64,000 bases of DNA, taken from positions 56,401-120,400 of the forward strand of contig CANQKC010000003.1 in NCBI GenBank assembly GCA_947624305.1, read 5' to 3'. Positions within the stretch are counted from its first letter, which is position 1, and every line of letters starts with the position of its first letter. Positions 461-60,921 of the stretch are shown here, in pieces. This DNA is from an uncultured Monoglobus sp. GTDB taxonomy: Bacteria > Bacillota > Clostridia > Monoglobales > Monoglobaceae. A program made the translations under genes and the position numbers. The notes under the pieces are model-generated. The model was not told the origin of the DNA. It did no database searches and was given only the letters and a program-made list of their open reading frames with translations.

Positions 461-2272
461 TTTTGCGCGCGCTTTGGCGCGCAGCTGATTGTTCAGTATC
501 TTTTTTCGTATTCTGAGATGGTTCGGCGTTACCTCCAAGAGCTCGTCGTCGGCCAGAAACTCGAGGCAGGCCTCAAGGCTCATCTGTATCGGCGGCGTGA
601 GCTTTAAGGCCTCGTCGCTGCCCGACGCGCGGGTGTTGGTTAGCTGTTTTTTCTTGCAGACATTGACGTTTATGTCCTCGGCCTTGGGATTGACGCCCAC
701 GACCATGCCCTCGTAGACCTCGACTCCGGGGCCGATAAACAGAGAGCCGCGGTCCTGAACCTTAAACAGGCCGTATCCCACGGCCTCGCCGGTCTCAAAT
801 GCGACAAGCGAGCCTGTGTGGCGGCTGTGGATCTCGCCCTTATACGGCTGATAGTCATAGAACACCGAGCTCAATATTCCCTCGCCCTTGGTGTCGGTCA
901 AAAACTCGCTTCTGTAACCCAAAAGTCCCCGCGACGGAATGAGATACTCAAGACGCATGCGCGAGCCCTGCGGCGCCATCGACTGCATCTCGCCCTTTCT
1001 GCTGCCTATTTTTTCCATGACCGCGCCCACGCTTTCCTCGGGCACGTCGATCACGAGCTTTTCGATCGGCTCGCATTTTTGGCCGTCGATCTCCTTATAA
1101 AGCACCTTGGGGGTTCCGACCATGAACTCATAGCCCTCGCGGCGCATGGTCTCGATCAGGATAGAGATATGCATCTCGCCTCTGCCCGCCACGCGGAAGC
1201 TGTCGGTGGTCTCGCCGTCGGAGACGCGCAGCGACACGTCCTTCAAAAGCTCGCGGCTGAGCCTGTCTCTTATCTGTCTTGAAGTGACAAACTTGCCGTC
1301 TCTGCCCGCGAACGGGCCGTCGTTTACAGAGAAGGTCATCTCGATCGTCGGCTCGCTTATCTTCACGAACGGCAGCGCCTCAACGCGGTCGGGCGCGCAG
1401 ATCGTGTCGCCTATGGTGATGTCGGGAATACCCGAGAAGCAGATTATGTCGCCCACCTCGGCCTCGTCAACAGCCGTGCGGCCAAGGCCGTCTATTTGAT
1501 AGAGGTTGACCATTTTGGCCTTGTAGGGCTCGTGGTTCTCGTGGTACTCGGCCACCTCAACCTCCTGGTTCTGCGTTATTCTGCCGCGCTCGATGCGGCC
1601 TATGCCTATTCTGCCGACATAGTCGTTATAGTCTATCGAGGACACCAGCATCTGAAGCGGGCCGTTCTCGTCGCCCTCGGGCGCGGGGATATAATTTTTT
1701 ATGGTCTCAAAGAGGACCTTGAGGTCCTTTCCTTCCTCATACTGCGAAAGCGACGCGGTGCCCGCTCTGCCCGAGCAGAACAATATCGGGCTTTCAAGCT
1801 GCTCGTCGTTCGCGTCAAGGTCAATAAGCAGATCGAGGATCTCGTCGGGGATCTCGTCAAGTCTCGCGTCGGGACGGTCTATCTTGTTGACCACAACGAT
1901 GACCCTGTGGTTCATCTCAAGCGCCTTTCCGAGCACAAATCTTGTCTGCGGCATGGGGCCCTCGGCGGCGTCCACCAAAAGGATTACGCCGTTCACCATC
2001 TTGAGTATGCGCTCGACCTCGCCGCTGAAATCGGCGTGTCCGGGCGTGTCGATGATATTCATCTTTATGCCTTCATAGTAAACCGAGGTGTTTTTTGAAA
2101 GGATAGTTATTCCCCTCTCGCGCTCAAGGTCGTTGCTGTCCATGACACGCTCCTCAACCACCTGATTTTCGCGGTACACGCCGCCCTGCTTGAGCATCTC
2201 GTCGACCAGCGTGGTCTTGCCGTGGTCAACGTGGGCGATTATCGCTATGTTTCTTAAATCCTCTCTTATCAT
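455..2272 (-). CDS. typA: Ribosome-associated GTPase TypA/BipA
   Basis: [39 protein letters not shown]-terminal BipA domain; start taken at MIREDLRN (ORF extends to 2281). Confidence 0.95.
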   Translation of the reverse strand: MIREDLRNIAIIAHVDHGKTTLVDEMLKQGGVYRENQVVEERVMDSNDLERERGITILSKNTSVYYEGIKMNIIDTPGHADFSGEVERILKMVNGVILLVDAAEGPMPQTRFVLGKALEMNHRVIVVVNKIDRPDARLDEIPDEILDLLIDLDANDEQLESPILFCSGRAGTASLSQYEEGKDLKVLFETIKNYIPAPEGDENGPLQMLVSSIDYNDYVGRIGIGRIERGRITQNQEVEVAEYHENHEPYKAKMVNLYQIDGLGRTAVDEAEVGDIICFSGIPDITIGDTICAPDRVEALPFVKISEPTIEMTFSVNDGPFAGRDGKFVTSRQIRDRLSRELLKDVSLRVSDGETTDSFRVAGRGEMHISILIETMRREGYEFMVGTPKVLYKEIDGQKCEPIEKLVIDVPEESVGAVMEKIGSRKGEMQSMAPQGSRMRLEYLIPSRGLLGYRSEFLTDTKGEGILSSVFYDYQPYKGEIHSRHTGSLVAFETGEAVGYGLFKVQDRGSLFIGPGVEVYEGMVVGVNPKAEDINVNVCKKKQLTNTRASGSDEALKLTPPIQMSLEACLEFLADDELLEVTPNHLRIRKKILNNQLRAKARAKA

Positions 2273-13703: not shown

Positions 13704-14849
13704 ATGCTTATAATCAACGCTGAAATCATGACCATGAGCGACAGGCTCGGCGTGATCAAAAACGGATATATCGAGATCAAAGACAAAAAGATCGCCTCAA
13801 TGGGCGATATGGCCGACGCGCCCGAAATAGGCGGCGAGATCATCGACGCGGGCGGACGCCTTGTGACGCCAGGCCTTGTGGATGCGCACTCGCACATAGG
13901 AATGTGGGAGGACGGCCTGACGTTTGAGGGCGACGACGGCAACGAGGACACCGAGCCGATAACGCCGCACCTCAGAGCGATCGACGGAATAAACCCGCTT
14001 GACGCCACGTTTTCGGAGGCGCTCAGCGCGGGAATAACGACGGTCGTGACCGGCCCGGGAAGCGCCAACCCGATAGGCGGCCAGGCAGCCGCGCTCAAAA
14101 CGAGCGGCAGGCGCGTTGACGACATGATAATCAAGGCCCCGGTCGGCATGAAGATCGCCCTGGGCGAAAACCCCAAGACCACATATAATGACAAAAGCCG
14201 CTCGCCGGTGACAAGAATGGCCACCGCCTCGCTTATCCGCGAGGCTCTGCGCGAGGCGCTCGACTATAAAACCGCGCTCGAAAAATACGGGGCCGACCCC
14301 GAGAACGAGGACAAGCCCGACTATGATATAAAATCCGAGGCGCTGCTTCCGGTGCTGAGGCGCGAGATACCGCTTCACGCCCACGCGCACCGCGCGGACG
14401 ATATTTTTACCGCCATACGCATCGCGAGGGAATTTGACCTTGACCTGATCCTGGTTCACTGCACCGAGGGGCACCTTATCGCGGACGAGCTCGCGCGCGA
14501 GGGCTTCCCCGTCCTCTCGGGCCCGATCATGACCGACCGCAGCAAGCCAGAACTCAGGAACCAGACCGAGGCCTCGGCGGGGATCATGGAGCGCGCCGGG
14601 ATCGACGTTTCGATAATCACCGACCACCCCGAAACGCCCGAAAAATTCCTTCCGCTCTGCGCCGCGGTCGCCGCGAAATACGGCATGAGCAGGGACGGCG
14701 CGCTGCGGGCGTTAACGATCAACCCGGCCCGCGCCTGCGGCATTGACGACCGCGTGGGCTCGCTCGAGCCCGGCAAGGACGGCGACCTCGTGATCTGGAA
14801 CGGCGACCCTCTTTCAATCGAGGGTTCCCCATATAAAGTGATATGCTGA
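13704..14849 (+). CDS. Amidohydrolase family protein
   Basis: LVTPGLVDAHSHIGMW metal motif, HAHRADDI, ITDHPETP; SD AGGAGG before ATG at 13704. Confidence 0.9.
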   Translation: MLIINAEIMTMSDRLGVIKNGYIEIKDKKIASMGDMADAPEIGGEIIDAGGRLVTPGLVDAHSHIGMWEDGLTFEGDDGNEDTEPITPHLRAIDGINPLDATFSEALSAGITTVVTGPGSANPIGGQAAALKTSGRRVDDMIIKAPVGMKIALGENPKTTYNDKSRSPVTRMATASLIREALREALDYKTALEKYGADPENEDKPDYDIKSEALLPVLRREIPLHAHAHRADDIFTAIRIAREFDLDLILVHCTEGHLIADELAREGFPVLSGPIMTDRSKPELRNQTEASAGIMERAGIDVSIITDHPETPEKFLPLCAAVAAKYGMSRDGALRALTINPARACGIDDRVGSLEPGKDGDLVIWNGDPLSIEGSPYKVIC

Positions 14850-44028: not shown

Positions 44029-44068
44029 CAAAAGAGCAGCCTTTCGACTGCTCTCGATTGCGGTGTTC
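44029..44068. repeat. Direct repeat/hairpin copy A
   Basis: aaAGAGCAGcctttcgaCTGCTCTCGATTGCGGTGTT. Confidence 0.75.
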
Positions 44069-44840: not shown

Positions 44841-44880
44841 ACAAAAGAGCAACCTTGCGATTGCTCTCGATTGCGGCATT
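44841..44880. repeat. Direct repeat/hairpin copy B
   Basis: acaaaAGAGCAAccttgcgaTTGCTCTCGATTGCGGCATT; stem differs from copy A by a compensatory change. Confidence 0.75.
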
Positions 44881-46799: not shown

Positions 46800-46828
46800 T
46801 TGACACTCAGACGCGATTATGATATAAT
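46800..46828 (+). promoter_or_regulatory. Consensus sigma70/sigmaA promoter for the crRNA-like small RNA
   Basis: TTGACA (46800-46805) - N17 - TATAAT (46823-46828); predicted TSS about 46835. Confidence 0.8.
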
Positions 46829-46834
46829 ATAACC

Positions 46835-46938
46835 GATCCCGAAAAGGATCACCGCGCCTTAAAAAGCGCGTGAGTAGAAATTTTTAAAATTATTATATTG
46901 TTGTCGCGTCCCCATAAAGGGACGCGTGAGTTTTTATA
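46835..46938 (+). ncRNA. Putative crRNA-like small RNA: degenerate repeat 1 (46850-46881), 21-nt pseudo-spacer (46882-46902), degenerate repeat 2/terminator (46903-46938)
   Basis: GCGCGTGAGTAGAAAT vs array repeat 3' half GCGTGTGAGTTGAAAT (14/16); GTC-GCGTCCC-cataaa-GGGACGC-GTGAGTTTTTAT keeps the GTC-stem-loop-stem-GTGAGT architecture of the array repeat. Confidence 0.65.
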
Positions 46939-47008
46939 TCATGTGTTAGTCGATACAAATAAACATCAAAATACCTTTAAAAACATAAAAATAAATTTTA
47001 AAAAAGAC

Positions 47009-47038
47009 TTGACATTATATTATCAGATATGATATTAT
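47009..47038 (+). promoter_or_regulatory. Predicted cas operon promoter
   Basis: TTGACA (47009-47014) - N18 - TATTAT (47033-47038). Confidence 0.7.
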
Positions 47039-47040
47039 CA

Positions 47041-47069
47041 TTTTACAATTTTATATATTAATTGTAAAA
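47041..47069. promoter_or_regulatory. Perfect 9-bp inverted repeat over the predicted cas TSS/5'UTR
   Basis: TTTTACAAT-tttatatatta-ATTGTAAAA, just before RBS AGAGGTGAG. Confidence 0.7.
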
Positions 47070-47085
47070 GAGGTGAGATTAAATA

Positions 47086-49263
47086 ATGTCTACAAATTCC
47101 AACAACTACATAGCACATACATCCGATGACGGCAGGGTGCAGAGCGTTAAGGAACATCTTGAACAAACAGCGGAACTGAGCGCCGACAACGCTTTGCCGG
47201 AATTTAAAGAGCTCGCGCGCTGCTGCGGGCTGTATCACGACTTGGGGAAGTACTCACCGGAGTTTCAGAGATATATCAGGGGCTCGGGTCAAAAGGTTGA
47301 GCATGCGCGCTTTGGGGCTATGCGTCTTGCCCAAAATTGCGATACGTCCTATACCGCCATGCTCGCTTATTGTATCTGCGGTCATCATACGGGTTTGCCG
47401 GACGGAGGCGTATCGAATGATGAAAAGGGAGATCCAACACTTAACGGAATGTTAAAAAGAGAGCAATATGACTGTTCCGGGTTTGATAATGAGATTGGTG
47501 ATTGGTTTCCCGACGATTCTTTATTTGAGGTATTAAATAATTTGCCGGATAAAAAAGAATTGATCGAGGTTTACTCATTTCTCACGAGGTACATATACTC
47601 ATGTCTTACCGACGCCGATTTTATTGACACAGAGCGTTTTTGCAAGTCCAATGCCGAGAGAGGCCTTAAAGGTGATTTTGTTGCCGCTTATAAAAAGGTT
47701 TGCGCAAAATTTGAAGAATTCAAATCTGAAACGGAACTTCAAAAGGCGCGAAGCGGCGTTCAGCATCAGGTTTATGACAGCGTGGAAAACGGCGACGCGG
47801 ATGTATACATGATCGACATGCCGACAGGCAGCGGAAAAACTATGTGCAGCATCAAAGCGGCTTTGCGCTTGGCGATTAAAAAGAAAAAGAAAAGAATAAT
47901 CTATATAATGCCATACACAAGCATAATCGAGCAAACTGCAAAGGTTTTCAAGGATATATTCGGCGATTTGCTGCCGGTATTGCAGCACCATTCCAATTAT
48001 GACTTTGACAATTCAAGCAAAGATAACGATGAAAGTGTAACGACAAGCGAAAAATTAAAAAAGACTTGTGAGAACTATGACGCGCCTTTGATCGTCACGA
48101 CAAGCGTTCAATTCTTCGAATCACTCTACCATTACAAAAGCAGCAGACTACGAAAGCTGCATAACCTTGCGGACAGCGTGTTGGTGTTTGATGAGATACA
48201 CGCTCTGCCCGTTGAATATATCCAGCCGTGTCTGCGCGGGATAGGATACATAACGAAGTATCTTAACTCAACAGCGATCCTTATGTCCGCGACAATGCCC
48301 GACTACACGCGCTTTGCAGAAAAATATATTCCGAAATGCTCAATAGAATATGCAGTGAAGGACAAGAAACTTTTCGGGCGATTTAATAAATGCAAATATC
48401 AATATATCGGTCAAAGCGACATCGGATCGATAGCTGAAAAAGCGCTAGAACGGGAAAACTCACTTGTGATAGTCAATAAAAGAAGTACGGCAAGAGAGCT
48501 TTACAATATTTGCAAAAACAATCCCGATCATGAAGTGTATCACCTGTCAACATATATGACGCCGTCAGACCGCGCGAAAACCATAAACAGGATAAGAGAC
48601 AATCTTGATCGCGGCGATAATACGATCGTGATATCGACCTCGCTTATCGAGGCGGGCGTGGATCTTGATTTTAAGTCGGTTTTTCGCGAGATCGCGGGAC
48701 TTGACAGTATAGTTCAGGCGGGCGGCCGCTGCAATCGCGAGGGCAAAATGAGTTTCGGAAACGTGTTTGTATTTGAACTTGAGCCTTTAAAAGGAAATAT
48801 TGCCGTCAAAGCAAATGTCACACGAAAGCTTTTTAAGGAGTTTGAAAATGTTTCCTCACAGAATGCGGTCCGGGAATACTATGACAGAATTTTTGCATAT
48901 ACCGACACAAGCATAGAAAGCAATTCCATAACCAATTTTATGGGCAGAAGCATGGATCTGAGCGGAATTCCCTTTAGGACTTACGCGTTGGAGTTTAAAT
49001 TCATTGATACGGAAACGGTGGGTATAGTTATACCGTGCAAAGAAAACGAGAAGCTTATAAATTCCTTAGAATACGGCGCGCTTTCGGTTAAGCGAGAGCT
49101 TCAAAAATACTGCGCCTCGGTTTATTCCCGCGAACTTGAGTATATGATAGAAAAAGGAATTGCAAAAAATGTGTGTAATAATGTATATGTTTTGACTGTT
49201 CCCCAATATTACAGTAAGGAAACAGGACTTGATATAGGTAAAACTTTTGATCATTTTTTATAA
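47086..49263 (+). CDS. cas3: CRISPR-associated helicase-nuclease Cas3 (HD + DExH helicase)
   Basis: CCGLYHDLGKYSPEFQ (HD), MPTGSGKTMCSIKAAL, VFDEIHALP, STSLIEAGVDLDFKSVFRE, QAGGRCNREG. Confidence 0.97.
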   Translation: MSTNSNNYIAHTSDDGRVQSVKEHLEQTAELSADNALPEFKELARCCGLYHDLGKYSPEFQRYIRGSGQKVEHARFGAMRLAQNCDTSYTAMLAYCICGHHTGLPDGGVSNDEKGDPTLNGMLKREQYDCSGFDNEIGDWFPDDSLFEVLNNLPDKKELIEVYSFLTRYIYSCLTDADFIDTERFCKSNAERGLKGDFVAAYKKVCAKFEEFKSETELQKARSGVQHQVYDSVENGDADVYMIDMPTGSGKTMCSIKAALRLAIKKKKKRIIYIMPYTSIIEQTAKVFKDIFGDLLPVLQHHSNYDFDNSSKDNDESVTTSEKLKKTCENYDAPLIVTTSVQFFESLYHYKSSRLRKLHNLADSVLVFDEIHALPVEYIQPCLRGIGYITKYLNSTAILMSATMPDYTRFAEKYIPKCSIEYAVKDKKLFGRFNKCKYQYIGQSDIGSIAEKALERENSLVIVNKRSTARELYNICKNNPDHEVYHLSTYMTPSDRAKTINRIRDNLDRGDNTIVISTSLIEAGVDLDFKSVFREIAGLDSIVQAGGRCNREGKMSFGNVFVFELEPLKGNIAVKANVTRKLFKEFENVSSQNAVREYYDRIFAYTDTSIESNSITNFMGRSMDLSGIPFRTYALEFKFIDTETVGIVIPCKENEKLINSLEYGALSVKRELQKYCASVYSRELEYMIEKGIAKNVCNNVYVLTVPQYYSKETGLDIGKTFDHFL

Positions 49264-49273
49264 GGAGGACGGT

Positions 49274-50002
49274 ATGGGATACGGTTTCAAAATTATGGTA
49301 AGCGGCGATTACGCGTGTTTTACGCGGCCGGAGATGAAAACCGAAAGAGTGAGCTATGATGTGCCGACGCCCGGCGCGATGGAGGGGCTTATCAAGAGTA
49401 TTTATTGGAAGCCCGCGTTTCGGATAGTTGTGGACAAGATCATAGTATTCAATCCGATCAGGTTTATCAACATACGCCGCAACGAGGTAAAGGAGAAGGT
49501 GAGTTTTTCAAATGTGAAAAAGCAAATGAAAGACGGTGTACCGCGCGCCGAGTTGTACACCACGGACATTAAGACAAGAAGTCAGCGCGGCAGCATGATC
49601 CTCAAAGACGTTCTGTACGGCGTCGAGTTTCATTTTGAGCTTACCGGTATCAGGAGCGAGAATGACGACGAAAGCGAGGAAAAGCATTATAACATTATGC
49701 TCCGCAGATTAAAAAAGGGACAGCATTTCAGACAGCCGGTCTTGGGATGCCGCGAGTTTGCGGTGAAAAAGATTGAGCTTGTGGACGAGTTCCCGATGGA
49801 TCGTGTGTCAGACACACTGAACGGCGACACCGATCTCGGCTTTATGCTGTATCACATGAAATTCCGGGACAGCGGCATTCCGAAAGACAACGATTGGGAG
49901 ACGCGCAAGTTTTCCGACGAGGCGGATGCGGTGTTTTACCGACCGCACATGATCGACGGAGTGATAGATGTCGCGAAATACAAGGAGATGATGAAATGCT
50001 GA
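49274..50002 (+). CDS. cas5c: Type I-C Cas5c (crRNA-processing Cas5d family)
   Basis: FKIMVSGDYACFTRPEMKTERVSYDVPTPGAMEGLIKSIYWKPAF; SD AAGGAGG before ATG at 49274. Confidence 0.95.
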   Translation: MGYGFKIMVSGDYACFTRPEMKTERVSYDVPTPGAMEGLIKSIYWKPAFRIVVDKIIVFNPIRFINIRRNEVKEKVSFSNVKKQMKDGVPRAELYTTDIKTRSQRGSMILKDVLYGVEFHFELTGIRSENDDESEEKHYNIMLRRLKKGQHFRQPVLGCREFAVKKIELVDEFPMDRVSDTLNGDTDLGFMLYHMKFRDSGIPKDNDWETRKFSDEADAVFYRPHMIDGVIDVAKYKEMMKC

Positions 50003-51807
50003 TAAGCGCACTCAATGATTATTATGATATTTTATTAAAAAGAGGAGATACGGCAAAACCGGGAACCTCTCTGCAAAATATCACTCATATGATCATGCTG
50101 AGAGATGACGGAACAATAAGCAATATTATAGATGTTCGCAAGAGCGGAAAGCCCGACAAAAACGGCAAAACAAGGCTCATGCCCATTGAGGCAGTTTTGC
50201 CCACGCGGACTCAAAAGACGGCGATCGACGCGAACATAATCGAGCACCGCGCACCGTATATTTTCGGACTAAATTATGATAAGCAAACGAATGCTTTTAC
50301 TACTGAAGACGAAAAAAATAAGGCGAGGAAAGCACATGAGTGCTTTGCTAAAACGAATTTGGAGTATACCGAGGGAATGACATCCGATATTGTGACAGCA
50401 TATAGGAACTTTATCAAAAACTGGGTACCGGAAAACGAGACAAAAAACCCGCATCTTCTGAATATTGCCAAAGAATATCCCGGCGCGTATTTTATGTTTT
50501 GCCTTGACGGGCATCCTGAAAAAAGACTGCATGCCGACGATGGAGAGATAATGAAAAAAGTCAGGGACGCTATTAACACCGAAGAGCAAATTGACGGTGT
50601 CTGCGCTATAACCGGAAAAGCGGCGGAAATTGCAAAAATACACGACAAGATCAAAGGAATCCGCGGCGGACAACCCTCGGGCGGGCTTATTGTGAGCTTT
50701 AATGATTCTGCTTTTGAATCATACGGCAAGACTCAGTCATATAACAGTTCGATATCTAAATCCGTAATGAAACGATACACAGAGGCATTGAATTTTCTTA
50801 TAAAGGACTCATGGCATCATGAATATCTGGAGGATTTAACTGTCGTTTTTTGGGCGATGAATAAAAATGACATAGCTGAAACGAGTTCGTTTATGTTTAA
50901 TCTCGGCTTCGGGGGAAACAAAGCGAATGCAGACAAAACCGAAGAACTGCTGGGAAACGCGGTGAATAAACTTAGCGACGGCAAACACGCTGATTTGTCT
51001 ACTGATAATATTGATAAGAACGTGATGTTTTATGTTGTCGGTCTTGCGCCCAACAATTCAAGGATTGCGCAAAAATTCATATACCGTGACAGATACGGAA
51101 ATATTTTTAAAAATACCGAAAAGCATCAGGAAGACATGAAGATAGACGGCCTCAAAAAGCAGATATCCGTTTGGCGGATGCTCAATGAAATGAAGCCGCC
51201 GAAAAACCAAACCGAAAAAACGCCCGCGCCGGTCATAGCGGCGGTTTTCGGAGCTATACTGGACGGAACGCGGTACCCCGATACTCTGCTTGAAACAATA
51301 GTCAGAAGAGTCAAAACAGATAAAATAATAAATTATGCACGGGCAGGAATATTAAAGGCTTATATAAACAGAAATTTAAGATTAAACCAAAAAGAGGAGG
51401 AAATTACAATGGCACTTGACAAAACAAACACAAACGAAGCATATTTATGCGGAAGGCTGTTCGCGGTCCTCGAGCGCATCCAGAAGATCGCCGCGGATAC
51501 AGATCTTAACAAAACGATAAAGGATTCATATTTTGCTTCAGCGTGCTCGAGACCTATGTTGGTATTACCAAGACTGATAGAATTGGCTCAAAATCATCTT
51601 AAAAAATGTAAGTCCGGCAAAAAAATAGGAAGTGCGATATATTACAATAAACTTATGGGTGAGATCATTGACATGCTCGGAACCGATTTCCCGTCAACGC
51701 TGTCACTGCAGGACCAAGGCAGATTTATAATAGGTTACTATCAGCAGCGGCAGGATTTTTTCAAAGATAAAAATAATGAAAATAATAATACAGAAGGAGA
51801 GATGTAA
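49996..51807 (+). CDS. cas8c: Type I-C Cas8c (Csd1) large subunit
   Basis: MLISALNDYYDILLKRGD... VSFNDSAFESYGKTQSYNSSISKSVMKRYTEALNFL (Csd1 hallmark); start moved to 49996 from over-extended ORF. Confidence 0.95.
   Translation: MLISALNDYYDILLKRGDTAKPGTSLQNITHMIMLRDDGTISNIIDVRKSGKPDKNGKTRLMPIEAVLPTRTQKTAIDANIIEHRAPYIFGLNYDKQTNAFTTEDEKNKARKAHECFAKTNLEYTEGMTSDIVTAYRNFIKNWVPENETKNPHLLNIAKEYPGAYFMFCLDGHPEKRLHADDGEIMKKVRDAINTEEQIDGVCAITGKAAEIAKIHDKIKGIRGGQPSGGLIVSFNDSAFESYGKTQSYNSSISKSVMKRYTEALNFLIKDSWHHEYLEDLTVVFWAMNKNDIAETSSFMFNLGFGGNKANADKTEELLGNAVNKLSDGKHADLSTDNIDKNVMFYVVGLAPNNSRIAQKFIYRDRYGNIFKNTEKHQEDMKIDGLKKQISVWRMLNEMKPPKNQTEKTPAPVIAAVFGAILDGTRYPDTLLETIVRRVKTDKIINYARAGILKAYINRNLRLNQKEEEITMALDKTNTNEAYLCGRLFAVLERIQKIAADTDLNKTIKDSYFASACSRPMLVLPRLIELAQNHLKKCKSGKKIGSAIYYNKLMGEIIDMLGTDFPSTLSLQDQGRFIIGYYQQRQDFFKDKNNENNNTEGEM
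51409..51807 (+). CDS. cas11c: Cas11c small subunit from an internal start within cas8c
   Basis: In-frame ATG at 51409 (codon 472 of cas8c) preceded by strong SD AGAGGAGGAAATTACAATG; 132 aa product, as established for type I-C small subunits. Confidence 0.75.
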   Translation: MALDKTNTNEAYLCGRLFAVLERIQKIAADTDLNKTIKDSYFASACSRPMLVLPRLIELAQNHLKKCKSGKKIGSAIYYNKLMGEIIDMLGTDFPSTLSLQDQGRFIIGYYQQRQDFFKDKNNENNNTEGEM

Positions 51808-51808
51808 A

Positions 51809-52672
51809 ATGAAAGCAATTAATAACAGATACGAGTTTATAATGATTTTTGACGTTGAAAACGGGAATCCCAACGGTGATCCGGACGCGGGCAATATGCC
51901 GAGAGTTGATCCGGAAACAACGCACGGCATAGTCACAGATGTTTGCTTAAAAAGAAAAATACGCAATTTTGTCGAGCTGTGCAAGGAAGGCGAGCCGGGA
52001 TATAATATACTGATAAAGTCGGATAGGTCGCTCAATTCCAAGTTTACCGAAGCGTATGAAGCCGAAGGCCTTAAAACGGGACAAAAGGGCAAAAACGCCG
52101 ATGATGTCAGACAGGCGCGCGATTATATGTGCAGAAACTATTTTGACGTGCGCGCGTTCGGCGCGGTAATGAACACGGGCGAAGATCCGTGCGGCATCGT
52201 TCGCGGTCCGGTCCAGATCAACTTCGCCAGAAGCGTTGATCCGGTATATACTCAGGATATTACGATCACAAGACAGGCAAAAACAACAAATGACAGGATG
52301 AAAAGCGGAGAGACCGAAATGGGGAAAAAGAATATTGTGCCTTACGGCCTCTACAAGGCCGAGGGTTATGTGTCGGCAATGCTCGCGCAGAAGGTCACTG
52401 GTTTATCGGAAGATGATCTTGATCTGCTATGGAATGCCATAATCAACATGTTCGAGCATGATCACAGCGCAGCGCGCGGCAAAATGTGCATGAGAAAGCT
52501 CCTGATATTTAAGCATGAAAGTCCGCTCGGAAACGCTCCGTCGCATGTTTTATTTGATAAGATAGCGATCAATAAGAAATACGGCATTGAGTGCCCGAGA
52601 AATTATGAGGATTACGAGATCGCCGTTGACAGAGATATGCCCGAGGGCGTAACTCTTATCGAAAAGCTGTGA
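51809..52672 (+). CDS. cas7c: Type I-C Cas7c (Csd2) backbone subunit
   Basis: FIMIFDVENGNPNGDPDAGNMPRVDPETTHGIVTDVCLKRKIRNFV. Confidence 0.97.
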   Translation: MKAINNRYEFIMIFDVENGNPNGDPDAGNMPRVDPETTHGIVTDVCLKRKIRNFVELCKEGEPGYNILIKSDRSLNSKFTEAYEAEGLKTGQKGKNADDVRQARDYMCRNYFDVRAFGAVMNTGEDPCGIVRGPVQINFARSVDPVYTQDITITRQAKTTNDRMKSGETEMGKKNIVPYGLYKAEGYVSAMLAQKVTGLSEDDLDLLWNAIINMFEHDHSAARGKMCMRKLLIFKHESPLGNAPSHVLFDKIAINKKYGIECPRNYEDYEIAVDRDMPEGVTLIEKL

Positions 52673-53316
52673 CGATCAATATTCGCGCTATTCAGCACTA
52701 TATGTACTGTCCGCGCCGCTTTGGACTGCTTGAGTTAAACCAAGACTGGGCGGAAAACGCTTTTGTCGTGAAGGCGAACATCATGCACGAGCGCGTCCAT
52801 TCGGGTATGCATGAACGTCATTCAAAAGAAAAAATCGAACTCAGCTCGGTTTCGCTCTATCATGACGGGCTCGATTTGTACGGCGTAGCAGACTGTGTTG
52901 AATTCGTAAGAAGCAAAAACGGGGCTTACATAGAGCAGCTCGGCGACAATTTCAGCGTTAACATTGTCGAGTATAAGCCCCGTCGCCCCGCTTCCGGAAC
53001 GGTAAGCGAAACCGACGCGATACAGGTCTTTGCGCAAAAGCTTTGCGCGGATCATATATGGAAATGCGAAAGCGCGGGCTATATATACTACGGCGACGCG
53101 CACCGCAGGGTAAAGCTTGATCTTAACGAGGAGTATGACAAATACTATTCTCTGCTGCAAAAGCTGGTTTTTGAAATGAATGAAGTTCTTGAAAGCGGAA
53201 AGATACCGGATCGGGTCAAAGGGCAGAAGTGCAGCGGCTGCTCAATGAAAAATGTGTGTATTCCTCAGAACAAAAAATACACTGTCCGCAATCTTGTTAA
53301 GGAGGAATGTGTATGA
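52669..53316 (+). CDS. cas4: Cas4 exonuclease-family protein (GTG start)
   Basis: AIQHYMYCPRRFGLLE, C-terminal KCSGCSMKNVCIP Fe-S cysteines. Confidence 0.95.
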   Translation: MTINIRAIQHYMYCPRRFGLLELNQDWAENAFVVKANIMHERVHSGMHERHSKEKIELSSVSLYHDGLDLYGVADCVEFVRSKNGAYIEQLGDNFSVNIVEYKPRRPASGTVSETDAIQVFAQKLCADHIWKCESAGYIYYGDAHRRVKLDLNEEYDKYYSLLQKLVFEMNEVLESGKIPDRVKGQKCSGCSMKNVCIPQNKKYTVRNLVKEECV

Positions 53317-54335
53317 GGAAACTTTTGAATTCATTGTATATAACAGACGAAAATATATACCTCACTCTTGACGGAGAAAATATCGTATGCAGGAAGGATA
53401 ATGAAATTAAGCTCAGAGTTCCGTTTTCAAATATTGAGGCGGTTTACTGCTTCAGCTACCTTGGATGCTCGCCGGCTTTAATGGGAAAATGCGCGGAGTA
53501 TGGTATCCCGATAAGCTTCATATCCCCTCACGGCCGTTTTCTCGCGAGTGTTCACGGGCCGGCGCACGGCAATATACTGCTGAGAAAAGCGCAGTTTGAA
53601 CAATTCGCGGATCCTCCCGCGCTGCTGCGGCAGAACGTGGTCGCAGCCAAAATGGCAAATACAAGAAGCGTCGTGAAAAGAACGCTGAAGGATTATCCGT
53701 CCATAAATCCCGACGGCAGCCTTTCGCATTGCATCGAGCTGCTTGACCAATACATAGAAAACGTGTATGAAGCTCAAGATATAAACGAAATTCTCGGGAT
53801 AGAAGGGCAGGGCGCAAAGGCCTACTTTGATATTTTTGACAGCTTGATCCTGCACCAAAAGAATGACTTTAAGTTCTCAATGAGAACGAAACGTCCTCCG
53901 CTTGACAGAGTAAACGCCGTTTTGTCATTCTTGTATACGATTTGGACAAACGATTATGCCTCGGCGCTTGAAAGCGTGGGTCTGGACAGTTATTTGGGAT
54001 TTTATCATTCTGTGCGTCCGGGCCGCGCTTCGCTCGCGTGTGATCTTGTTGAAGAAAGCCGCTGCATTATTGAGCGATTTGTGCTGACTATGATCAACCT
54101 GAAAATATTAAACGCGGATGACTTTGAAACACAGGTCAGCGGGGCGGTATTTCTTAACACTGACGGCAAAAAGAAGATACTTTCAAAGTGGCAGGAGAAA
54201 AAACGAAGCGATATTGTGCATCCCTATCTTAAGCAAAAGATAGACCTCGGCCTTTTGCCATACGCGCAAAGCATGCTGCTCGCGAAATATATCCGCGGCG
54301 AGATCGAGGAATATCCGTGCTATATCGTAAAATAG
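53313..54335 (+). CDS. cas1: Cas1 integrase (type I-C)
   Basis: MRKLLNSLYITDENIYLTLDGENIVCR; GLDSYLGFYHSVRPGRASLACDLVEESRCIIERF. Confidence 0.97.
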   Translation: MRKLLNSLYITDENIYLTLDGENIVCRKDNEIKLRVPFSNIEAVYCFSYLGCSPALMGKCAEYGIPISFISPHGRFLASVHGPAHGNILLRKAQFEQFADPPALLRQNVVAAKMANTRSVVKRTLKDYPSINPDGSLSHCIELLDQYIENVYEAQDINEILGIEGQGAKAYFDIFDSLILHQKNDFKFSMRTKRPPLDRVNAVLSFLYTIWTNDYASALESVGLDSYLGFYHSVRPGRASLACDLVEESRCIIERFVLTMINLKILNADDFETQVSGAVFLNTDGKKKILSKWQEKKRSDIVHPYLKQKIDLGLLPYAQSMLLAKYIRGEIEEYPCYIVK

Positions 54336-54347
54336 GAGAACAAAATT

Positions 54348-54638
54348 ATGATGTGTGTAGTGAGCTATGACGTGTCAACGATCGACTCCGCGGGGAAGCG
54401 AAGACTCAGAAAGGTCGCCAAGGAATGTCTTAACTATGGCCAGCGTGTGCAGAATTCGGTTTTTGAGGTTGATGTTGATTACTCGACCTTTCTGAAGTTG
54501 AAGGACAGACTTGAAAAAATTATTGACAGCGATAAGGACAGCCTCAGAATATACTACCTCGGCAATAATTGGAAAAGACGCGTTGAGCATATCGGAGCCA
54601 AATCGACCTACGACCCGGAGGGCGCGTTGATTTTATAG
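54348..54638 (+). CDS. cas2: Cas2
   Basis: MMCVVSYDVSTIDSAGKRRLRKVAKECLNYGQRVQNSVFEVDVD. Confidence 0.97.
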   Translation: MMCVVSYDVSTIDSAGKRRLRKVAKECLNYGQRVQNSVFEVDVDYSTFLKLKDRLEKIIDSDKDSLRIYYLGNNWKRRVEHIGAKSTYDPEGALIL

Positions 54639-54782: not shown

Positions 54783-57700
54783 GTCACGCCTCGCAGAGGC
54801 GTGTGAGTTGAAATTTTAATTTGGCGGTCAGAAATATAAACGCGACAGGTCACGCCTCGCAGAGGCGTGTGAGTTGAAATTTGGCGTGTATTCGTCCAGT
54901 TTCGGTTTTTCCAAGTCACGCCTCGCAGAGGCGTGTGAGTTGAAATTTGAGTATATGGGTCTTGCGAGCTGGTCTGTTGAAAGTCACGCCTCGCAGAGGC
55001 GTGTGAGTTGAAATTGTTCCTGCTCGTATGTTTGCCGCATATCAACAAGTCACGCCTCGCAGAGGCGTGTGAGTTGAAATTCGCTTGTAGGGCACTGACG
55101 GATTCTGCGCTTTTGTCACGCCTCGCAGAGGCGTGTGAGTTGAAATTTTTGATAATGTCATGGAAACCCTCAATCAAAGCGTCACGCCTCGCAGAGGCGT
55201 GTGAGTTGAAATCAGACCGTACCGCAAACAGCTACATGGGGGCTCCCGTCACGCCTCGCAGAGGCGTGTGAGTTGAAATCTCTAAAAAATTTATTGATTT
55301 ATTTTATGCTACTGTCACGCCTCGCAGAGGCGTGTGAGTTGAAATGCGTATTCGGGTGTGTATTCGGACAGCGAAAGCGAGTCACGCCTCGCAGAGGCGT
55401 GTGAGTTGAAATTTTTCAGAACCTCCGTGTACACTCGGTCGCTTTGGTCACGCCTCGCAGAGGCGTGTGAGTTGAAATAGAACGTCGTTTGACAAGGTTT
55501 TGAACAGCATGTGTCACGCCTCGCAGAGGCGTGTGAGTTGAAATGTTTGTTTATTTGCATTTCATCTTGAAAGAGAAAGTCACGCCTCGCAGAGGCGTGT
55601 GAGTTGAAATGTAGCAGATGCTACCGTTCCACCAGAAATATCCGGTCACGCCTCGCAGAGGCGTGTGAGTTGAAATTTTTCAGAAGTTCTCGCAGCGTTG
55701 CCGTCATTTTGTCACGCCTCGCAGAGGCGTGTGAGTTGAAATTCGAGACTGCGGGCGGAGAGAAGAACGTTATCGAGTCACGCCTCGCAGAGGCGTGTGA
55801 GTTGAAATTTTCTGAAGATCGCCCAGACGCTGCCTCACATATTGTCACGCCTCGCAGAGGCGTGTGAGTTGAAATTGTTCCGATTACCAATTCACCGGCG
55901 ACGCCGGTGGTCACGCCTCGCAGAGGCGTGTGAGTTGAAATCAATCGAGCGGACGCTGACGGGCGACACCGATAAAGTCACGCCTCGCAGAGGCGTGTGA
56001 GTTGAAATATAATCCGTTATGGAAAACGCTTATCGATAAAGGGTCACGCCTCGCAGAGGCGTGTGAGTTGAAATAAAATGCGCCTTATCAATGGCGTTTG
56101 AAATTGTTGTCACGCCTCGCAGAGGCGTGTGAGTTGAAATTTTCGCAAAAATACTTTCCGGAATATGCGCCAAGTCACGCCTCGCAGAGGCGTGTGAGTT
56201 GAAATGAGAGTGTTGACGCGGACATGAAGAAGTTCACGAGTCACGCCTCGCAGAGGCGTGTGAGTTGAAATTGAAATACTGAATATAACCCGTTATAGTT
56301 TTCGAGTCACGCCTCGCAGAGGCGTGTGAGTTGAAATGATGCGATGGCGGGCGAACTGCAATCACCGTTTTGTCACGCCTCGCAGAGGCGTGTGAGTTGA
56401 AATGAAGGTTGGAAAATGTAGAATTGCGCCATTCGGCGTCACGCCTCGCAGAGGCGTGTGAGTTGAAATTCCCCAAGGGGCGAGCCGGGCGGATAATATC
56501 CGCGTCACGCCTCGCAGAGGCGTGTGAGTTGAAATTTTTGATATTCGCAGTTATACGTATGCGCAGAAAGTCACGCCTCGCAGAGGCGTGTGAGTTGAAA
56601 TGACATCAGTTCTCCTTCACGGAGCCGCGCAAACGCGTCACGCCTCGCAGAGGCGTGTGAGTTGAAATGCTCAGCGGACGCTTAGTCAAAAAATACGGCG
56701 GGTCACGCCTCGCAGAGGCGTGTGAGTTGAAATGGCGCCGTCGTCATATTCGTCCGGGTCAAACTCGTCACGCCTCGCAGAGGCGTGTGAGTTGAAATAT
56801 ACGTTTATCTCGTTGAATATGCTCGTGCGAATAGTTCGTCACGCCTCGCAGAGGCGTGTGAGTTGAAATATACAGTCTGAGCGTCGCGGAGGCGCAGTCG
56901 TTAAGTCACGCCTCGCAGAGGCGTGTGAGTTGAAATTCCCGTTTCGGCATTGAATACCAAATCGAAGTTGGGTCACGCCTCGCAGAGGCGTGTGAGTTGA
57001 AATTCCGTTTTCGTGCAATATTCCCCTTGACATTCCGTCACGCCTCGCAGAGGCGTGTGAGTTGAAATCACGATGCCTTGATTGTTCCGCCCGACCAAAA
57101 ATGTCACGCCTCGCAGAGGCGTGTGAGTTGAAATGGCCGTCAGTAGTCCAGTCTATAGGCTCGGTGTTGTCACGCCTCGCAGAGGCGTGTGAGTTGAAAT
57201 TCAGCAGAAATGTTAGCAAACTCGGGGATCTCAAGTCACGCCTCGCAGAGGCGTGTGAGTTGAAATACCTGATGTCACTTCCTCTTAACCAAGCCATTGA
57301 GTCACGCCTCGCAGAGGCGTGTGAGTTGAAATGATGAGCCTTAACTTGCAGTTTTGCAAAAACATGTCACGCCTCGCAGAGGCGTGTGAGTTGAAATTTT
57401 TAATAACGCCTGTTTAATTTCATCGTCAATCGTCACGCCTCGCAGAGGCGTGTGAGTTGAAATATGAACGAGGATCACATCAAAGGGTTTCGGTTTTAGT
57501 CACGCCTCGCAGAGGCGTGTGAGTTGAAATATTTCATCTATACCGAGTAGCCAATCTGCGCTTGTGTCACGCCTCGCAGAGGCGTGTGAGTTGAAATTAA
57601 CCACGTCTGCAAAATGGGTCTGGGGAATACCTGTCACGCCTCGCAGAGGCGTGTGAGTTGAAATTCTCGTTAAAATCATACGCGGTCATTTGCAAATATT

Positions 57701-60700
57701 GTCACGCCTCGCAGAGGCGTGTGAGTTGAAATCTTGAAATGCTCCGAGACGTGGCACGGCGATATAGTCACGCCTCGCAGAGGCGTGTGAGTTGAAATTG
57801 AACTTGAGGCCAAAACACCCGATGAGGATTTCAGTCACGCCTCGCAGAGGCGTGTGAGTTGAAATGCCTCTGATAATTGGATTGTTCGGGTCAAATGTAG
57901 TCACGCCTCGCAGAGGCGTGTGAGTTGAAATGTAGTTGTATAATTTCCGACTGAAACAGCAATCAGTCACGCCTCGCAGAGGCGTGTGAGTTGAAATAGG
58001 ATTTCGGCACATCACAATCGGCCGCATTTTGTCACGCCTCGCAGAGGCGTGTGAGTTGAAATGACGAATACGGTCATTGCGCAACAGGAGCGCTACATGT
58101 CACGCCTCGCAGAGGCGTGTGAGTTGAAATGTGCGTTTCATGCGCAGCTTTGAGCACGTCTAAATCGTCACGCCTCGCAGAGGCGTGTGAGTTGAAATTC
58201 TTTCAATTTCGTTTTTTGCCGAATACGGGCATGTCACGCCTCGCAGAGGCGTGTGAGTTGAAATTCGCAATGGCAGATCGACGCGCACGGATATTGGCGC
58301 GTCACGCCTCGCAGAGGCGTGTGAGTTGAAATGGCCGAGGCCACCGAGAAAAAAAGGACGATTTTCGTCACGCCTCGCAGAGGCGTGTGAGTTGAAATCG
58401 GGGTTTCCTCCGTCGGGGTTTTAAGTGCTTTTTCGTCACGCCTCGCAGAGGCGTGTGAGTTGAAATTGTTGTCGTAGCTGTTGTTTACGCCCACATAGTG
58501 TCACGCCTCGCAGAGGCGTGTGAGTTGAAATTACGCGAACGGCGAGGACATAACCAAAATGGCGGGTCACGCCTCGCAGAGGCGTGTGAGTTGAAATATG
58601 AATATCCTCGCCGATCTCTTTGATCACCTCATGTCACGCCTCGCAGAGGCGTGTGAGTTGAAATGAGAAAAAAGTGCAGGAGCTTGAAAGCAGATTGAGT
58701 CACGCCTCGCAGAGGCGTGTGAGTTGAAATTATCAAACGTCACCATGCCGCGATCTGCCCGTTCGTCACGCCTCGCAGAGGCGTGTGAGTTGAAATAAAG
58801 AAACGCTCGGTATCTTCGAGGGTGAAACCGTCACGCCTCGCAGAGGCGTGTGAGTTGAAATCCGGTTGGCATTGGAGCGCGCTGCATAGTTTGTCAGTCA
58901 CGCCTCGCAGAGGCGTGTGAGTTGAAATGTGACACCTATCTTTACGTTGTGAAAAGAGTCAAGTCACGCCTCGCAGAGGCGTGTGAGTTGAAATCCGCTT
59001 TATTGAAGTAAATATCATCGCCGGGACCTGTCACGCCTCGCAGAGGCGTGTGAGTTGAAATAGTGGTGTGTCAATACTTTTTTTAAAAAATCTGCAGTCA
59101 CGCCTCGCAGAGGCGTGTGAGTTGAAATTCGGGATAAGGATTTCCCGTCTTATACGGCAGGTCACGCCTCGCAGAGGCGTGTGAGTTGAAATGATGCGAT
59201 GGCGGGCGAACTGCAATCACCGTTTGTCACGCCTCGCAGAGGCGTGTGAGTTGAAATCGTCCTCAACGCCTACGTTCAGCGAACGGAATACGTCACGCCT
59301 CGCAGAGGCGTGTGAGTTGAAATTAAGCGTGTATTTGTAGACCACGTCGCCGTTTTCGTCACGCCTCGCAGAGGCGTGTGAGTTGAAATAATTTTAACGA
59401 CGAGGGGCAGGACAGAGGCTACGTCACGCCTCGCAGAGGCGTGTGAGTTGAAATTTTGAAAAACTGCGGAGCATTTTTTGTACAGGAGGTCACGCCTCGC
59501 AGAGGCGTGTGAGTTGAAATATCAATGGCGTTCGAAATTGTTATCGCAGTCATTGTTACAAGTCACGCCTCGCAGAGGCGTGTGAGTTGAAATTCTCCTG
59601 ATTTGTGGGCGCGGAACAGCGGCTATCGTCACGCCTCGCAGAGGCGTGTGAGTTGAAATAATGCCCATATCGGCAAACTTGGCGCCCGTCTCGTCACGCC
59701 TCGCAGAGGCGTGTGAGTTGAAATGAGATGGGCACGGCAACAAATAACGTGCAAGGTGTCACGCCTCGCAGAGGCGTGTGAGTTGAAATTTTGGAAATCT
59801 TACCCGTATGATACAACGGTTTGCCGGTCACGCCTCGCAGAGGCGTGTGAGTTGAAATTGGACACGCTACACAGCGGTTGGTACGCCGGTAGGTCACGCC
59901 TCGCAGAGGCGTGTGAGTTGAAATGCGGAAGGTAATGTCGGTGATGTCACGGTCAATGGTCACGCCTCGCAGAGGCGTGTGAGTTGAAATATCGCAAACC
60001 CTATTCCTCTGCTAAGCGTTTTTGTCACGCCTCGCAGAGGCGTGTGAGTTGAAATGCTAAGATTATAGAGATAGGCGAGAGGCATAACGCGTCACGCCTC
60101 GCAGAGGCGTGTGAGTTGAAATATTGAGGAACGCTATACTCAGCAAGCCATGTATGCGTCACGCCTCGCAGAGGCGTGTGAGTTGAAATAATACTGTCAG
60201 CCAATTCCGACACATCGCCAACCGTCACGCCTCGCAGAGGCGTGTGAGTTGAAATTCCAGATCTGCGGGCTTCGCGATCCAGCAGACAAGTCACGCCTCG
60301 CAGAGGCGTGTGAGTTGAAATTTGTGTTTAGAACAATACTTCTCGTTGTGTTCAACGTCACGCCTCGCAGAGGCGTGTGAGTTGAAATTGTTTTCCACCA
60401 CGCAACGAATCGGAAAAATGGAGTCACGCCTCGCAGAGGCGTGTGAGTTGAAATGGGTTTACCTTTTCTATCATGCTATAACACCTCGTGTCACGCCTCG
60501 CAGAGGCGTGTGAGTTGAAATTGATCGGATTTGCGTATGTGCCCGCCGCGGGTGGTCACGCCTCGCAGAGGCGTGTGAGTTGAAATGTTTGAATATCGCC
60601 CGATGATACGTTCCACGATGTGTCACGCCTCGCAGAGGCGTGTGAGTTGAAATTCGGCCGCGCGGGAAACGCTTTGCCATTTGCGGGAGTCACGCCTCGC

Positions 60701-60921
60701 AGAGGCGTGTGAGTTGAAATGCTATATCAAACAACTCGGTGTATTTGGGGTTGTCAGTCACGCCTCGCAGAGGCGTGTGAGTTGAAATTCTGCACCGTTA
60801 AAGCAGGATAAAATCGCCTCGCGTCACGCCTCGCAGAGGCGTGTGAGTTGAAATTTTGTCAGGCGTGAGAAACGGGCATACTTCCATGTGTCACGCCTCG
60901 CAGAGGCGTGTGAGTTTTAAT
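54783..60921 (+). CRISPR. Type I-C CRISPR array, 93 repeats / 92 spacers
   Basis: 32-nt repeat GTCACGCCTCGCAGAGGCGTGTGAGTTGAAAT, near-invariant; I counted 93 copies; spacers 32-41 nt (mostly 33-36); last repeat (60890-60921) degenerate at its 3' end (GAGTTTTAAT). Confidence 0.99.

Follow-up and report, generated by a model that had tools for sequence, protein, structure and literature searches.

Shmakov et al. (NAR 2023, gkad495) reportedly described type I mini-arrays in which the repeats stand alone and the guides have partial complementarity to cas promoters. Guide positions 6 and 12 are known not to pair in Cascade. The cas-regulating RNAs known as CreR have been reported for types I-B, I-E and V-A (PMC13131331), and for type I and type V-A (PMC12737573). 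In haloarchaea, CreA pairs with its target at positions 1–5 and 7–11, tolerates changes at positions 6 and 12, and makes use of a PAM (PMC8501985). In type II systems, a long-form tracrRNA mediates the autorepression of Cas9 (PMC8730458). Type I-C Cascade has been used for CRISPRi, with repression of transcription by a spacer placed over a −10 box (PMC10865793).

The locus considered here lies in a stretch of 64,000 nucleotides (the window), which belongs to contig 3 in a genome of 2.68 Mb; the same-genus records retrieved by name are MAGs from rabbit gut, with the label Monoglobus or Clostridia. The window contains a complete type I-C system, with genes in the order cas3-cas5c-cas8c-cas7-cas4-cas1-cas2, called with NCBIfam models at their curated cut-offs (Table 1). 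An earlier note described a degenerate mini-array beside this operon, with a guide targeting the cas3 control region through limited complementarity, and this description was borne out; complementarity of such limited extent implies that Cascade would bind its target rather than cleave it. The mini-array is very probably a CreR-kind cas-regulating RNA gene of type I-C, the guide of which would steer Cascade to the start of cas3 and repress the operon.

Like CreR, the locus is an ectopic unit of two degenerate repeats and a spacer beside the cas operon, with a putative promoter of its own. Its guide has limited complementarity to the cas promoter region, with seed positions 1–5 and 7–11 paired, its target bears the PAM of the linked Cascade (CTC, the array-derived PAM being CTC or CTT), guide and target covary among relatives, and no toxin is involved. 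It differs from CreR in its type (I-C), in its 17-nt pairing in three segments and, in the clade of the window, in a leader target whose PAM falls within the Shine-Dalgarno sequence; repression is, here, a prediction. Judged by its sequence, the locus is a CreR of type I-C that has an additional paired segment. It also recalls the type I mini-arrays attributed to Shmakov et al., with their stand-alone repeats and guides partly complementary to cas promoters. With CreA of the CreTA modules (type I-B in haloarchaea, I-F in Acinetobacter), it shares a short guide flanked by two degenerate repeats, pairing at positions 1–5 and 7–11 with positions 6 and 12 free, and a PAM, but the target here drives cas3 rather than a toxin, and a third segment, positions 13–17, is also kept. 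The long-form tracrRNA is likewise a natural guide repressing its own cas operon, but its effector and RNA architecture are unrelated. Racrs (RNA anti-CRISPRs) are lone repeats carried by phages or plasmids, whereas two repeats and a conserved guide are found here, at the cas locus, in 12 genomes.

Table 1. Features of the type I-C locus and its mini-array (positions within the window).
Feature	Positions	Strand	Details
Mini-array promoter	46800–46828	+	TTGACA, 17 nt, TATAAT; matches the consensus at 12/12 positions
Small 5' hairpin (GATCC...GGATC) of the predicted mini-array transcript	46834–46851	+	Stem reported on the minus strand
Degenerate repeat 1 (psiR1)	46848–46881	+	Handle TGAGTAGAAAT at its end
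Pseudo-spacer (psiS)	46882–46902	+	Guide TTTTAAAATTATTATATTGTT, 21 nt
Degenerate repeat 2 (psiR2)	46903–46937	+	8-bp stem, then TGAGTTTTTA
Seed match of the earlier note	46994–47003	-	TTTTAAAATT, in an A/T tract upstream of the −35 box
cas3 promoter	47009–47038	+	TTGACA 47009–47014, 18 nt, TATTAT 47033–47038
Conserved target (protospacer)	47053–47069	-	TTTTACAATTAATATAT; mismatches at positions 6 and 12 only
PAM of the target	47070–47072	-	CTC, complementary to the GAG of GAGGTG, the Shine-Dalgarno sequence of cas3
cas3 (HD and helicase)	47086–49263	+	TIGR01587, TIGR01596, above cut-off
cas5c	49274–50002	+	TIGR01876, 161.5 bits, above cut-off
cas8c/csd1	49996–51807	+	TIGR01863, 412.8 bits, above cut-off
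cas7/csd2	51776–52672	+	TIGR02589, 329.9 bits, above cut-off
cas4	52669–53316	+	TIGR00372, above cut-off
cas1	53307–54335	+	TIGR03640 (type I-C), above cut-off
cas2	54348–54638	+	TIGR01573, above cut-off
Main CRISPR array	54783–60921	+	93 repeats, 92 spacers

The arrangement of the mini-array promoter is common to the relatives in which the array has the same orientation as in the window, and the small hairpin at the predicted 5' end of the transcript folds in both the window and the relatives. The handle of psiR1 is invariant among the relatives, the window differing by one base; the corresponding sequence of the main-array repeat is TGAGTTGAAAT. The guide is 21 nt long, versus 32–41 nt for the spacers of the main array. 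The stem and T-run of psiR2 also read as a potential intrinsic terminator. This repeat has a degenerate, T-rich 3' end (TGAGTTTTTAT) in common with the final main-array repeat (60890–60921; TGAGTTTTAAT); the mini-array may have originated at an array's trailer end. An Rfam scan yielded only irrelevant sub-threshold matches.

The guide of the window matches positions 47069–47053, on the minus strand in the cas3 leader, at 15 of 15 core positions (1–5, 7–11 and 13–17). The target starts about 15 bp past the −10 box and abuts the cas3 ribosome-binding site. In a search by pattern, this site was the single match in the whole 2.68-Mb genome, and the best site with an NTC PAM did not exceed 13/15 in 3000 dinucleotide shuffles of the 160-bp intergenic region. 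A near-match on the plus strand of the leader (TTTTACAATTTTATATA, PAM TCA) was rejected, with only nine of the 15 core positions matching. The uniqueness of the target also bears on a possible addiction module of the CreTA type, in which the guide would silence a toxin rather than cas; the guide and repeats have the same anatomy as creA (PMC8501985, PMC9458426), but the sole matching target lies on the promoter and leader driving cas3 directly, with no separate gene in between, which makes such a module extremely improbable.

The earlier note had placed the operator elsewhere, 66 bp upstream of this target. The letters are as it described them: TTTTAAAATT, read on the minus strand from 47003 to 46994, is identical to the first 10 nt of the pseudo-spacer, is preceded by CTT (47006–47004), and ends five bases from the −35 TTGACA (47009). 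The significance of a 10-nt match is modest, as it arose by chance in 49 of the 3000 shuffles of the intergenic region. The window contains this 10-mer twice more, at unrelated positions (12629 on the plus strand and 27658 on the minus strand). The seed together with a CTC or CTT PAM was found in none of 400 shuffles, in a post hoc test in which shuffling disrupts the natural A/T tract. The note had entered as one caveat on its own site that CTT is not the canonical type I-C PAM; this caveat does not apply here, CTT being the PAM of four of the 11 informative array spacers (see below). Cascade parked on this site, with PAM CTT, as a main or second operator upstream of the −35 box, would thus have a real PAM of this organism and an exact seed, and in one relative (L004) the corresponding place bears a TTT and an exact seed match to that genome's own guide, which differs from the guide of the window. 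However, the window and L004 are the only two of 12 genomes with an exact seed there, and L005 and L006 have the guide of L004 without the site. Most guides fit the A/T tracts of other genomes as well as or better than their own, nothing comparable is found in the second clade (clade B), and the site agrees with the guide at only 12/15 core positions, with mismatches at positions 11, 12, 14 and 16. The site was rejected as the main operator because it does not covary with the guide; it could at most have a weak auxiliary role in this genome, at low probability.

The reading preferred here, Cascade guided to the conserved target in the cas3 leader, draws its main evidence from covariation. An intact mini-array is present upstream of cas3 in the genome of the window and in 11 others, the Cas3 proteins of which are about 70–78% identical to that of the window. 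These 12 genomes, mostly draft MAGs, carry 10 distinct guides. Each guide was scanned against its own upstream region, positions 6 and 12 being left out; in all 12 genomes, the best site was on the minus strand, immediately upstream of cas3, with a CTC or TTC PAM, and 15/15 core positions matched in 11 genomes and 14/15 in the other. Over the 10 distinct guides, guide and target agreed at 149 of 150 core positions, versus two of the 10 pairs at position 6, four at position 12 and none at position 18. Paired changes in guide and target were found at positions 2, 4, 5, 7, 8, 14, 16 and 17. As the target is A/T-rich, much of the guide is invariant and uninformative, and the case rests on these varying positions. 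When guides were paired with targets at random, the true score was reached in none of 200,000 trials, and within each clade the true assignment alone reached it. A scan without locus-specific input (any GAAAN handle and any NTC PAM, over 900 bp) recovered exactly this guide/site pair in 12/12 genomes, and found no such pair in other, distant Cas3 loci. In clade B, the mini-array is inverted and the pairing is kept. Self-repression of cas by the mini-array, as the earlier note proposed, is therefore strongly supported by sequence, through the covariation in 12 genomes, but the conserved target is 47053–47069 and not 46994–47003; conservation of seed/target pairing among homologues, the lack of which that note named as refuting, fails for its own site and holds for the leader target.

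The same data bear on the view that the mini-array is a functionless remnant of a decayed or self-targeting CRISPR. The repeats are indeed degenerate, and in one relative (L008) the mini-array is damaged and the matching promoter/leader stretch is, by eye, gone. A remnant would not, however, be expected to have a guide and target changing together at core positions and drifting freely at positions 6 and 12 and after 17, nor to be kept in 12 genomes in both orientations, and this explanation is scarcely credible.

In another relative, L036 (about 980–1150, minus strand), the mini-array extends to a third repeat and includes a second spacer of full length, suggesting that the regulatory unit is apparently still able to grow or exchange in an array-like manner. 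In a same-genus genome with no type I-C genes detected (L138/L145, G009:C121), the mini-array promoter and first repeat are kept, and psiR1 runs directly into an ordinary spacer and array repeat (junction near 1522–1605, minus strand); beyond these comes sequence that in the window is located downstream of the array (95% over 240 bp). The arrangement has the appearance of a recombination of psiR1 with an array repeat, by which the whole cas operon was lost.

The PAM was determined from protospacers in same-genus genomes (matches outside arrays), because searches of viral contigs and phage records gave no match: viral contigs contained neither matches to four main-array spacer patterns nor a relative of the Cas3 of the window, and phage records contained no match to the main array. 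Eleven spacers were informative (1, 4, 5, 13, 26, 30, 35, 41, 45, 63 and 64), with CTC for seven and CTT for four. The CTC of the target is thus the PAM of the system itself. This CTC/CTT preference differs from the textbook TTC of type I-C, which is mostly seen in the sister clade. In one clade B genome (n = 9 spacers), the PAM was TTC for five, CTC for one and TTT for one, with weak matches giving TAC and CTG; the mini-array target of this genome has TTC, which is the PAM of three of the five clade B targets in all. The PAM of the target therefore seems to track that of each clade's system, although the clade B numbers are small (nine spacers).

In the clade of the window, the PAM coincides with the ribosome-binding site, so its conservation alone is no proof of DNA targeting there. 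A plain antisense RNA could, without Cascade, hide the ribosome-binding site of the cas3 mRNA, because the paired region of this clade lies in the leader beside GAGGTG, where RNA and mRNA are complementary. However, mismatches only at every sixth position are a signature of Cascade and would be pointless for antisense pairing, and the degenerate repeats are retained on both sides of the guide. Moreover, the clade B target overlaps the −10 box and should mostly not be transcribed, and its PAM, which agrees with that of the array, is kept independently of the ribosome-binding site. Antisense action alone is very unlikely.

In the Cascade mechanism favoured here, the mini-array would be transcribed from its own strong promoter as far as the stem and T-run of psiR2, and Cas5c would process the transcript into a short guide carried by I-C Cascade. 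Cascade would recognise the PAM CTC (47072–47070) and the guide would pair with 47069–47053 in exactly three five-base segments (1–5, 7–11 and 13–17), positions 6, 12 and 18 remaining unpaired. The incomplete R-loop would keep Cascade at the start of the cas3-cas5-cas8c-cas7-cas4-cas1-cas2 operon, without cleavage by Cas3, blocking transcription just downstream of the promoter or, in the sister clade, covering the −10 box; both positions are compatible with a Cascade roadblock. Repression would ease, and more Cas would be made, when Cascade was occupied by ordinary crRNAs or disabled by anti-CRISPRs.

This reading would extend RNA-guided cas self-repression to type I-C, which is unmentioned in the CreR literature consulted for types (PMC13131331, PMC12737573). 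The ten guide/target pairs constitute a natural experiment in which positions 1–5, 7–11 and 13–17 are held paired and positions 6, 12 and 18 onwards are not. Systems under such a guide would be expected to answer anti-CRISPRs by making more Cas, which is relevant to native I-C tools. More tentatively, and with somewhat less than even confidence, the locus may be a three-segment I-C CreR with an operator re-tuned in step with a drift of the Cascade PAM preference between genera (CTY versus TTC), and with a PAM that in this genus is buried in the cas3 Shine-Dalgarno sequence, locking the feedback; if so, mutations escaping through the PAM would also cripple Cas3 translation.

Several features of the surroundings were also observed. 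Spacers 24 (56338–56371) and 67 (59193–59225) of the main array have one common protospacer, and spacers 20 (56075–56108) and 72 (59521–59561) overlap, which suggests that the same elements have been met repeatedly. Spacer 34 (57004–57036) perfectly matches another contig of the same genome (C45, 13860–13892), and the last 24 nt of spacer 48 (57932–57965) match C45 at 13792–13815, 45 bases from the spacer 34 match; this contig probably represents a targeted mobile element, either resident in the genome or binned with it. A terminator-like inverted repeat is present in two 35-nt copies, 91% alike, after neighbouring genes (44029–44063 and 44842–44876).
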